From the IMG/VR virus record IMGVR_UViG_3300037485_001238, positions 1-22,522 of that record: DNA of 22,522 nucleotides; one strand, written 5' to 3'. Shown piece by piece: positions 2,952 through 5,321 of the stretch. The notes under the pieces were generated by a model. The model made no database searches. It worked only from the letters and a program-made list of their open reading frames with translations, and was not told the DNA's origin. The DNA is from a virus. The position numbers and the translations under genes are program-made. Position 1 is the first letter of the stretch. Every line of letters starts with the position of its first letter.

Positions 2952-3029
2952 TATAGATGTCTATATGTATAGATGTCTATATGTATAGATGTCTATATGT
3001 ATAGTTATCTATATATATATATATATATA
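2952..3029. repeat. Tandem 16-bp palindromic repeat followed by a (TA)n tract
   Basis: TATAGATGTCTATATG is repeated exactly at 2952-2967, 2968-2983 and 2984-2999, with a diverged fourth copy at 3000-3015 that merges into an alternating TA tract to about 3028. Each unit carries an inverted repeat TATAGA-tg-TCTATA. Spaced palindromes of this kind suit dimeric operator sites, and the AT tract would melt easily. Function is inferred. Confidence 0.85.
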
Positions 3030-3075
3030 AGGAAGAATAAATAAAAAAGTGCTTTTGTTGAAAAAAGGTTGAGTT

Positions 3076-3222: not shown

Positions 3223-3230
3223 TATATTTG
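3223..3230 (+). promoter_or_regulatory. Promoter -7 box (TATATTTG) for the tRNA-like cluster
   Basis: TATATTTG matches TAnnTTTG. It ends 4 nt before the first base of the acceptor-like stem at 3235, so transcription would be expected to begin essentially at the 5' end of the RNA. A TTTG at 3207-3210 is too close to be a standard -33 element. Confidence 0.55.
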
Positions 3231-3234
3231 CATC

Positions 3235-3359
3235 AGTCAGGTGGCAAATTGGTAAATGCTATTGGTAATGGGTTCGCATCCCTAAGATGAGTGAGCGTAA
3301 TCACACCATAGGCTCTGTCATAGAAGCCCTTACAGGTTCAAACCCTGTCCTGACCTCCA
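3235..3359 (+). tRNA. Atypical tRNA-like RNA, CAU anticodon candidate, 51-nt extra arm, encoded CCA
   Basis: Acceptor strands are AGTCAGG (3235-3241) and CCTGACC (3349-3355): six pairs plus an A-C mismatch at the 1-72 position. A T discriminator (3356) and encoded CCA (3357-3359) follow. The T arm is perfect (ACAGG, TTCAAAC, CCTGT, 3332-3348). A D arm GCA / TGC with loop AAATTGGTAA-type sequence lies at 3244-3259. Bases 3260-3310 form an insertion closed by TATTGGT / ACCATA. Without it, the best anticodon arm is 3311-3328: five pairs with a bulged C3315 and the 7-nt loop GTCATAG, giving anticodon CAT. It could be a divergent Met-type tRNA, a tRNA mimic, or a decaying gene. Confidence 0.5.
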
Positions 3360-3372
3360 GGAGTTCCAATCT

Positions 3373-3445
3373 CAAGTGCTGGTTAGTTTAAGACTGTCCG
3401 ATGAGCCTATCAAAATTGGTGACAGCGTGGAAAGACACGCACTTG
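3373..3445 (+). ncRNA. tRNA-sized structured element between the two tRNA-like genes
   Basis: A 73-nt segment is closed by a perfect 7-bp stem, CAAGTGC (3373-3379) with GCACTTG (3439-3445). Inside are a D-arm-like GTT / GAC stem (3382-3394), a long arm CTGTC / GACAG (3394-3398 with 3421-3425) extended by CCGAT / ATTGG, and a small GTG / CAC hairpin (3427-3438). It has tRNA size and acceptor stem but no canonical anticodon arm or TTC-type T loop. It may be a degenerate tRNA or another small RNA. Confidence 0.35.
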
Positions 3446-3513
3446 GCTATGTGGTGGGAGGCACACACGCCCTTAACTATGGGTCCTTGCAGGTTCAAAT
3501 CCTGCCATAGCTG
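3445..3513 (+). tRNA. tRNA-like gene with 8-nt anticodon loop, identity unclear
   Basis: Acceptor strands GGCTATG (3445-3451) and CATAGCT (3506-3512) pair over 7 bp (first pair G-U). The T arm is canonical (GCAGG, TTCAAAT, CCTGC, 3489-3505). A 3-bp D stem GTG / CAC encloses GGAGGCA (3454-3466). The best anticodon arm is GCCC / GGGT (3469-3472 with 3481-3484) with an 8-base loop TTAACTAT, so the anticodon cannot be read with confidence (AAC or TAA are options). CAA rather than CCA follows the G discriminator. Its first base is shared with the preceding element. Confidence 0.45.
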
Positions 3514-3565
3514 CAAAATCATTTCGTTGACGCCAACAAAATGACGGCTTTCCTTTCTTTATCCC

Positions 3566-3577: not shown

Positions 3578-3994
3578 ATGCCATCAGGGAATCACGAGTT
3601 CATTAAGCGCAAGAAGGCTGAAGTCGTAGTGGTAGAGGAGGACAAGGTGGAGGATGCCTCTACGACCACGGAGAAGCCCGTGGAGAGCGTTATGCCGGTC
3701 TTGTTGAAGGGGAATAGCCGAATGCCTAAGAATGTCACGAGAAGGGACATCAGAGACCTTCTGGAGGCCGACCTTGACCGTACCATTGGCGGGGTGAAGC
3801 GGATGGATGCGTTGATTGCCCGGATGGTGACTGAAGCGATACGGGGCAATATGAGGGCGATGGAATTGACCTTGGCTTATTTGTACGGCAAGCCACAGCA
3901 GCAGCAGACCGCGCCCGACACGGGGCCATTCGTGCTTGAACTCAGCGAACCAACGGAAGATGAAGTTAACGGCCCGGCAGACGCAGGCGTATAA
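3578..3994 (+). CDS. Putative terminase small subunit, 138 aa
   Basis: The product begins MPSGNHEFIKRKK, passes through an acidic, low-complexity N-terminal stretch (about residues 15-42), then a compact helical region with 'NVTRRDIRDLLEADLDRTIGG' and 'MVTEAIRGNMRAMELTLAYLYGKP' (about 52-108). The ending 'A..LTLAYLYGKP' recalls small phage packaging and DNA-binding proteins. Small terminase subunits recognise phage DNA and load it on the large subunit. The main support is position: it lies directly upstream of, and overlaps by 35 nt, the large terminase gene. Sequence alone would not identify it. The ATG is 4 nt from a promoter box, which fixes this start. Confidence 0.65.
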   Translation: MPSGNHEFIKRKKAEVVVVEEDKVEDASTTTEKPVESVMPVLLKGNSRMPKNVTRRDIRDLLEADLDRTIGGVKRMDALIARMVTEAIRGNMRAMELTLAYLYGKPQQQQTAPDTGPFVLELSEPTEDEVNGPADAGV

Positions 3995-5321
3995 ACTCGC
4001 CCTCTCCGGGGAGAAACAGTTCATCTTGTTTGGCGGGGCCATCCGGGGCGGGAAGACTTACTGCCTCCTTCTAACCTTCATCTCGCTTTGTTCTAAATAC
4101 CCTCGCTCCCGGTGGGCGATTATCAGGCAGAGTATGCCCACGCTTCAGCGAACGACTTTGGTCACCTTCACATCCCTGATGAACCAAGGGCTTGGGGCGC
4201 ACGTTGCCGGGTGGGACAAGCAGAGCCAGATTGTGACCTTCAAGAACGGATCCGAGTTGCTCTTTATGGGCGAGAACTACGACACCGACAAAGACTTTGA
4301 CCGCTTCAAAGGTCTTGAGATCAACGGTGCGGGGATTGATGAAATCAACGAGTGCCAGGAGGGGTTGCTCTACAAGGTACTTGAACGTGCCGGTTCGTGG
4401 CTCAATGCCGAAGGCCGACCGCCCATCGTGGTGATGGGCAGTTGCAACCCAAGCAATAATTGGGTGAAGGAGTTGGTGTACGACAAATGGAAGGAGAACA
4501 ACCTTCCCCCCACCTGGGCCTACATCCCCTCCAAGATTACCGACAACCCCCATATCCCGGAGGACTACCTCAAATCCCTGCGCGACAATATGCCGGAGTA
4601 CGAGTACAAGCGATTCGTAGAGGGCGATTGGGAGGTGCAGGAAAAACCCGAAAACCCATTCTTTATATCCTATGATGCCAAACGACACGAATCCTTCCAA
4701 CCAACCTTCCGCACCAACCTGCCCATCTACATCTCTTTGGACTTCAACTTGCAGCCATTCTGCGGCATCGTTGCCCAGATGTGGAGCGATGAAGATGGAG
4801 ACCACCTGCATATCGTGGATGAGTTCAACGTGGTTGATGGCTCCATCCCTAAAATGGTTGATACGATAAAGGCCAAGTACGCCCCTTTCCTGTTCTCCTG
4901 CCAAATCACCGGGGACGCGATGGGCAAGCGGGGCGATTTATCGCAGAGGGACAACGCGAACTACTACGAACAGCTCGCCAGGGGCTTAGGGTTAAGCCAA
5001 CGGCAGATTCGTATTGTCCCCAACCCGAAGCACGAGAACAGCCGGGCGCAATGCAACTACCTCCTTCAATTCCACCCCGATATCAAGGTGAACCCGAAGA
5101 CCTGCCCCGGTATGGCGCGGGATATGAAGATGGTGGCCTGCGATGCGAGCGGGACGATTATTAAGCGAAACCGATTTATTATCAGTCAGCAGTCCGACTT
5201 TGCCGACTGCTTTCGGTATCTTTGCAACAGCTTCCTGAACGAGTGGTACATCAAACACCTCAAGCGAAATGGTTACAGCAAGTTCGGGCCTAACTTCATC
5301 CCTGAAACGAACCACCTATGA
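3960..5321 (+). CDS. terL: Terminase large subunit
   Basis: This is the DNA-packaging motor: an ATPase that pumps DNA into the capsid and a nuclease that cuts the concatemer. With the start at 3960 (453 aa; an in-frame ATG at 3936 adds eight residues), the Walker A loop GGAIRGGKT is at residues 25-33 and the Walker B end GAGIDE carries D127-E128. The RNase H-like nuclease shows acidic residues in ISLDFN (D261), ITGDAMG (D319) and SDFADCF (D413, D416). Length and motif order are typical of tailed-phage large terminases. I prefer 3960 because KLTARQTQAYKLAL reads as the usual N-terminal helix and leaves less overlap with the small subunit gene. The 3' end overlaps the next gene by an ATGA junction. 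Confidence 0.95.
   Translation: MKLTARQTQAYKLALSGEKQFILFGGAIRGGKTYCLLLTFISLCSKYPRSRWAIIRQSMPTLQRTTLVTFTSLMNQGLGAHVAGWDKQSQIVTFKNGSELLFMGENYDTDKDFDRFKGLEINGAGIDEINECQEGLLYKVLERAGSWLNAEGRPPIVVMGSCNPSNNWVKELVYDKWKENNLPPTWAYIPSKITDNPHIPEDYLKSLRDNMPEYEYKRFVEGDWEVQEKPENPFFISYDAKRHESFQPTFRTNLPIYISLDFNLQPFCGIVAQMWSDEDGDHLHIVDEFNVVDGSIPKMVDTIKAKYAPFLFSCQITGDAMGKRGDLSQRDNANYYEQLARGLGLSQRQIRIVPNPKHENSRAQCNYLLQFHPDIKVNPKTCPGMARDMKMVACDASGTIIKRNRFIISQQSDFADCFRYLCNSFLNEWYIKHLKRNGYSKFGPNFIPETNHL

Follow-up and report, generated by a model that had tools for sequence, protein, structure and literature searches.

Evidence for a non-decoding, tRNA-scaffolded phage RNA in which an exchangeable domain takes the place of the anticodon arm

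Results

A small RNA array lies upstream of the terminase genes

We analysed a 22,522-nt stretch of viral DNA (the window), a 22.5-kb phage contig in which a tRNA-like element is bordered by an AT-rich intergenic region on one side and the terminase genes on the other (Table 1). Upstream of the array, positions 2953-3031 form an AT-rich tandem repeat of TATAGATGTCTATATG units, at which weak matches to microRNA families are low-complexity artefacts. The promoter box that an earlier note on this DNA had placed 4 nt before the acceptor stem is indeed there, in the form of a Bacteroidota-type -7 box; an identical box stands at equal distance in the related contigs L001, L005, L006, L007, and L008, and it lies within the stretch that is absent from relatives with an empty site (e.g. 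L003, L004, L046, and L047), i.e. it comes and goes with the array. No good match to a -33 box was found upstream of the element.

The spacer that follows the element holds two separately conserved modules, AGTGCTGGTTAG..GATGAGCC.ATCAAAA and TGACAGCxTGGAAAGACAxGC, the latter with a covarying hairpin, and their homologues adjoin tRNAs or tRNA-like elements in tRNA arrays of other phages. The modules had no Rfam match, and a hammerhead or HDV-like identity of the spacer, judged by eye, was unsupported by Rfam. Next in the array is a second tRNA-like element, the only one reported by ARAGORN at default settings, as an odd Ser(act). It has a shortened D loop, its homologues in L008, L156, L005, and L063 have anticodon loops of 5-8 nt with changing sequence, and it is apparently non-decoding as well. 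The hairpin and T-rich tract behind it are the probable end of the transcript; a terminator scan made no call there. The closest terminase large subunit (TerL) from an isolate is that of Flavobacterium phage 11b (31% identity), and it is from this protein and the promoter type that a Bacteroidota host is indirectly assigned.

Table 1 Features of the array and its flanks in the window
Feature	Position	Strand	Evidence
Bacteroidota-type -7 box TATATTTG	3223-3230	+	Direct reading; 4 nt upstream of nucleotide 1
RNA read as tRNA-scaffolded, anticodon arm replaced by 63-nt domain	3235-3359	+	cmsearch, tRNA model, 28.3 bits; homologues L001/L418, L417
Acceptor stem, 5' strand, AGTCAGG	3235-3241	+	Pairs with 3349-3355; near-invariant across 318 families
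D arm GCA-AATTGGTAAA-TGC, with GG and A14 equivalents	3244-3259	+	T8 97%, A14 91% in 381 relatives
Exchangeable domain	3260-3322	+	61/63 identical to L417; scaffold 48/59
Variable-arm hairpin GGCTC-TGTCATA-GAAGCC	3311-3328	+	5 bp, shifting bulge, in all three homologues; placed in variable region by tRNA model
T arm ACAGG-TTCAAAC-CCTGT	3332-3348	+	T stem fully paired in 95% of the 490 elements collected; compensatory changes in other families
Acceptor 3' strand CCTGACC, discriminator T, CCA	3349-3359	+	C72 and CCA specific to this copy
Spacer RNA with separately conserved modules	3360-3444	+	Homologues L118, L199, L297, L350, L362, L386, and others
Second tRNA-like element, acceptor GGCTATG	3445-3514	+	ARAGORN 'tRNA-Ser(act)'; tRNA model 31.2 bits at 3445-3513
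Hairpin CATTTCGTTG..CAACAAAATG, then T-rich tract	3515-3562	+	-8.8 kcal/mol, z -1.88; kept in many relatives
Terminase small subunit ORF, probable (flank)	3578-3994	+	Precedes TerL; no PHROG match
Terminase large subunit (flank)	3936-5321	+	phrog_979, 2.3e-27; query for finding relatives

The element has a tRNA body and a replaced anticodon arm

All three arms that the earlier note had found readable (acceptor, D, and T) are present together with the tRNA tertiary bases, and the covariance-model search with insertions allowed that it had proposed gives a match: the Rfam tRNA model covers 3235-3356 just below its cut-off of 29 bits and treats the middle as an insertion (E-value 8e-6 in a search of the record and 5.9e-4 in another search). 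At default settings ARAGORN misses the element, which it detects only when introns are permitted and the threshold is lowered. Apart from the tRNA model, no known RNA family in Rfam matched the element. Specifically, the tmRNA model matched nothing at the element or in the arrays of L205, L209, and L210, and a theta or HDV-like ribozyme had no Rfam match at E-values up to 1 in the window and the arrays of L404, L086, L417, L281, and L206, or at E-values up to 0.1 in the arrays of L205, L209, and L210. The folding energy of the element is unremarkable (z -0.46), and single-sequence folding is uninformative here. With regard to a tag frame of the tmRNA kind, an open reading frame begins with an ATG at 3287.

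The middle of the element is a large structured insert, as had been noted. Its closing stem, TATTGGT (3260-3266) with ACCATA (3305-3310), and the GGG/CCC and GTGA/TCAC hairpins are all present in the sequence, and the exchangeable domain ends in the start of the variable-arm hairpin (GGCTC-TGTCATA). What we read differently is the arrangement. The earlier note had seen a 51-nt extra arm inserted ahead of a bulged anticodon arm with a CAU loop. Because the tRNA model aligns GGCTCTGTCATAGAAGCC as variable-region material, while the remaining insert falls at the anticodon-arm position, the alignment indicates a class II, leucine-type tRNA body with a replaced anticodon arm, and the supposed anticodon arm is better taken as the class II variable arm. 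In the loop TGTCATA, U33 is missing from its expected register, and CAU therefore does not form an anticodon. A canonical anticodon arm, i.e. a 5-bp stem and a 7-nt loop with U33 and an anticodon, is not found in the element.

Many phages carry elements with the same ends and unrelated middles

It is comparison, and not folding energy, that sets the window RNA above chance. Search patterns built from the element ends only were run on a viral collection (one such scan was complete, with 85 stretches), and the fetched loci of environmental phage contigs hold at least 490 distinct elements with near-invariant ends and lengths of 73-211 nt. With exact 3' ends as bait, 95/99 and 56/63 of the matches listed had the 5' acceptor mate upstream, a total of 151/162 compared with 8/162 (5 and 3, respectively) in shuffled sequences. 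Conservation is ~100% at the element ends and at the level of base composition in the middle; the middles fall into at least 318 unrelated families, 227 of them singletons among those listed, with families defined by blastn similarity at E 1e-4 and their number dependent on this threshold. The acceptor is fully paired in 94% of the elements and the T stem in 95%. Of 381 elements whose D arm is clearly recognisable, only five can form a normal anticodon arm, which equals the rate in shuffles (1.0%), whereas 91-97% retain T8, A14, the T stem, and the acceptor stem. Inserts in the D loop also occur (elements E262, E429, and E482).

These comparisons also bear on the likeness to an initiator tRNA that the earlier note had drawn from the CAU loop and the mismatched first pair. 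Bacterial initiator tRNAs have a C1-A72 mismatch, a CAU anticodon, and three G-C pairs in the anticodon stem. The acceptor of the window element is paired at six of seven positions with A-C at 1-72, and TCCA follows at 3356-3359, so the mismatch and the encoded CCA are real. Nevertheless, 1-72 is A-U in 293 of the 318 family representatives and A-C in the window only among the matches listed, where the discriminator is A73 in 287/318 and CCA is encoded in 4/318. Because the family norm is T72 and A73 with no CCA, the A-C pair and the CCA are point changes of this copy; with CAU out of register and no normal anticodon arm, we reject the initiator identity.

Regarding distribution, 124 of the 195 elements with enough flanking sequence have a canonical tRNA no more than 3 kb away, in every case including one on the strand of the element itself, and 31 of the 195 are solitary. 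One 62-kb contig has 27 ARAGORN tRNA calls, mostly ordinary tRNAs, and at least 11 elements in a single array. The scaffold with this acceptor occurs in 0 of 198 Bacteroidota genomes, and an origin from a host tRNA-Leu with the same acceptor was rejected on this count. The exact 3' end was found in four contigs only among ~85,000 species genomes, and records of isolated phages gave partial tRNA matches with none covering the element.

Several observations concern the surroundings of such arrays. A noncoding spacer of ~160 nt in a 13-kb contig (L005, 4255-4413) is nearly identical to one between the second and third elements, on the reverse strand, of a 219-kb contig (L417), and a conserved spacer of ~150 nt (CAATGAGTAAGAGATACTCAGAG...) is common to L417, L205, and others. 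In L086 (7609-8193, minus strand), a group I intron (RF00028, 97.8 bits) immediately adjoins, or is inserted into, a phage tmRNA (RF00023, 49.2 bits). A freshwater-1 RNA (RF02979, E 3e-14) lies at 14249-14311 of L206, surrounded by the scaffolded RNAs of a phage tRNA array, a location that suggests a context for this orphan Rfam family. Scaffolds with different acceptors (GGCTCTA, GGTTGGG, TGTAAGG, and relatives), whose long inserts recur between phages, are possibly further classes of scaffolded RNAs (L302 5162, L234 4129, L326 484, L334 1363, L341 7277, L115 2258, and L410 1605). Members of the family of E330 (L168, L139, L147, and L005) are Leu(UAA)-like, and their anticodon stem has ~7-8 bp where a normal one has 5 bp; these members perhaps link working tRNA-Leu to the non-decoding elements.

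The middles behave as RNA domains that do not depend on the tRNA

Compared with shuffled copies, the domains fold more stably, at a mean z of -0.86, with 43% of them below -1 and 2.5% above +1. In family A1 (seven members), an 8-bp stem with an inner hairpin stands in place of the anticodon arm, and four pairs of the whole RNA have changed on both sides. In nine sequences of the A5 domain (46 nt), a six-pair helix keeps every pair (100%), and three of these pairs differ between sequences on both sides; the domain also has an invariant candidate crossing helix (7-9/29-31). The covariation score of each family was reached by 0/500 shuffles. In the domain of the window element, which is represented by three near-identical sequences, the internal pairs rest on conservation and not on covariation.

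Domains also move. One and the same domain is found on the differing self-complementary acceptors AATTAGA/TCTAATT (L351), AACAGAG/CTCTGTT (L270), AGCCGGG/CTCGGCT (L435), and AGTCAAG/CTTGACT. The domain of the window element recurs in L417, where it lies among other scaffolded RNAs, with spacer RNAs in common with L001 and L005; comparing the two copies, the domain is conserved independently of the body (61/63 versus 48/59). At least two domains occur outside tRNAs, one of them as a promoter-driven small RNA gene. A5 has 11 distinct free-standing copies, enclosed by a perfectly paired stem (AGAGTAAG/CTTACTCT) that in many cases has a T run behind it; directly upstream of nine of the 11 lies a textbook Bacteroidota promoter (TTTG-N17..23-TAnnTTTG). 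Copies of the A6 domain lie in AGTCAGG scaffolds as well as in plain stems (L086 and L463). A free-standing copy of the window domain was not found.

Searches for what the domains might recognise or derive from gave negative results within their scope. No domain matched an Rfam family. A5 had no match beyond chance in 395 Bacteroidota genomes, and the window domain had only short, weak matches in Bacteroidota genomes, none beyond chance. As antisense guides to local phage DNA, the domains had longest matches equal to those of shuffles; a short motif common to all domains gave weak enrichments only; and clustering of the ORFs near elements at 330 loci revealed no constant protein partner, no protein family being present in more than 28 loci.

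The terminase-flanking site varies among close relatives

TerL relatives were fetched, and those with 94-99% identity were compared at the array site. L003, L004, L046, L047, L011, and L016-L020 have no element there, L006 and L007 have one, L001 and L008 have two, and L005 has three. The arrays all start near AGTCAGGTGG, and the majority of elements end near CAGGTTCAAATCCTGTCCTGACTACA. Inside the first element, only the window and L001 resemble each other; all other first elements have unrelated interiors. Because the site holds from zero to three elements with differing interiors, we read it as an accessory cassette site with fast turnover.

Discussion

Taken together, the comparisons show a constant scaffold with interchangeable domains, modular exchange, no decoding capacity, and no intron signature; they also show that domains are conserved between unrelated phages and occur without a tRNA, and that whole cassettes turn over at one site. 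The locus therefore most probably encodes a non-decoding, tRNA-scaffolded phage RNA, in which an exchangeable, structured, phage-specific domain replaces the anticodon arm on a tRNA-Leu-like body. By analogy with tRNA biology, the adjacent promoter box would start the RNA at or near nucleotide 1, RNase P and 3' tRNA processing would trim the ends before CCA is added, and the tRNA fold would stabilise the domain; maturation is thus probably carried out by host tRNA enzymes.

Two readings would make the element a damaged or interrupted tRNA gene, and we regard both as highly improbable. The earlier note had listed an intron-containing gene among its options, and for an intron placed in or close to the anticodon arm, ARAGORN at lowered thresholds draws a tRNA-Ile(aat) with a 34-nt intron; however, anticodon arms could be restored in 23/200 real sequences and in 27/200 shuffled ones, inserts are also placed in the D loop, Rfam detects no group I core at the element, and the domains, like similar inserts, are found outside tRNAs. 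A decaying tRNA pseudogene would fit the 1-72 mismatch and the bulged variable arm of the window copy, and merely decaying stems in relatives had been named beforehand as grounds for dropping the case. The relatives contradict this for the class with their paired acceptor and T stems, the compensatory changes in their middles, and the near-identity of the window domain in a distant phage; inactivity is conceivable only for this one copy in the window.

The remaining alternatives grant that the elements function but assign the function elsewhere. The constant acceptor/T/D body might itself be active as a decoy or sponge that saturates host enzymes attacking tRNA ends or bodies, with the middle as unselected filler. 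The scaffold is the most constant part of the elements, and defence effectors acting on tRNA are well known: PARIS AriB acts on tRNAs (PMC12409363), Septu cuts the variable loop of tRNA-Tyr (PMC13096335), Cas12a3 cuts tRNA tails (PMC12851939), and the toxSAS FaRel2 reads the acceptor stem (PMC11559606). Nevertheless, we consider a sponge unlikely, given that the middles are conserved and covary, in some cases more strongly conserved than the body around them, and that they are exchanged among scaffolds whose acceptors differ and also occur where there is no tRNA. Less likely still is that the elements serve as punctuation, i.e. as RNase P and RNase Z cut sites that free the structured spacer RNAs between them. 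Spacers are conserved across distant phages, as this would predict (window/L362/L297, L001/L417, L005/L417, and L205/L417), but punctuation does not require a conserved, exchangeable domain inside the tRNA, and 31 of the 195 elements are solitary.

If the elements are scaffolds for exchangeable domains, the question becomes what the domains do. It is plausible, although somewhat short of an even chance, that the phages infecting aquatic Bacteroidota draw on a common, open-ended pool of structured RNA effectors. These would be presented on a common tRNA scaffold or on plain stems, swapped as cassettes, and each directed at a particular host or rival factor. Such a pool would be the RNA equivalent of protein anti-defence islands and would exploit host tRNA maturation and stability. 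More tentatively, the domain may act in trans on a factor of the host or a competitor, e.g. a defence system, with the large pool resulting from an arms race. The rapid exchange of elements at one site and the large number of domains have the look of such a race, and defences that target tRNA are common (PMC12409363, PMC13096335, PMC12851939, PMC11555353); the function of the domain is possibly counter-defence. A tRNA mimic that disturbs host factors, also considered in the earlier note, is possible. A natural tRNA scaffold with so many exchangeable domains would provide a list of new, fold-conserved small RNAs that could be screened for inhibition of defence systems and of host processes, and would readily supply stable formats for RNA display. 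The elements also make testable the role of the many 'undetermined' tRNAs in phage arrays.

No matching description was found in Rfam or in the open literature searched, and the elements apparently form a large, so far undescribed class of phage noncoding RNAs, which tRNA gene finders skip or mislabel and which may for this reason have gone unseen. Among known RNAs, a canonical class II tRNA-Leu shares the acceptor, D, and T arms, T8, A14, the GG of the D loop, and the prevailing A73, and the 5' 24-25 nt of the elements match annotated phage tRNA-Leu genes at ~96%, whereas the elements lack the anticodon arm and have A-U at 1-72. In tmRNA (RF00023), too, a domain flanked by tRNA ends stands in for the anticodon arm; the elements, however, have a full D arm, a leucine-type scaffold, and an insert of mostly 23-160 nt. 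The pseudo-tRNA or tRNA-Other of Bacillus cereus (PMC3399842) and mascRNA/menRNA (RF01684) are also non-decoding tRNA-like RNAs, but are single genes without an exchangeable domain; the second window element scores 20.0 bits with the mascRNA model, below the cut-off of 42.5. Defence-evading phage tRNAs (PMC11555353, PMC12409363) likewise come in accessory, fast-changing arrays directed against host defence, but are functional tRNAs that substitute for damaged ones of the host. Theta ribozymes (PMC10879173) are structured RNAs beside the tRNAs of Bacteroidota and Bacillota phages; unlike the domains, they are HDV-like self-cleaving units outside the tRNA. In the engineered 'tRNA scaffold' for recombinant RNAs (cf. 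PMC3753655), a foreign structured RNA is placed where the anticodon arm would be and is stabilised by the tRNA body, while the phage elements are natural and carry hundreds of domain families. The nearest natural layouts are tmRNA, pseudo-tRNAs, and mascRNA, and the nearest concept is the laboratory tRNA scaffold: phages, too, seem to employ tRNAs as prefabricated carriers of other RNAs.
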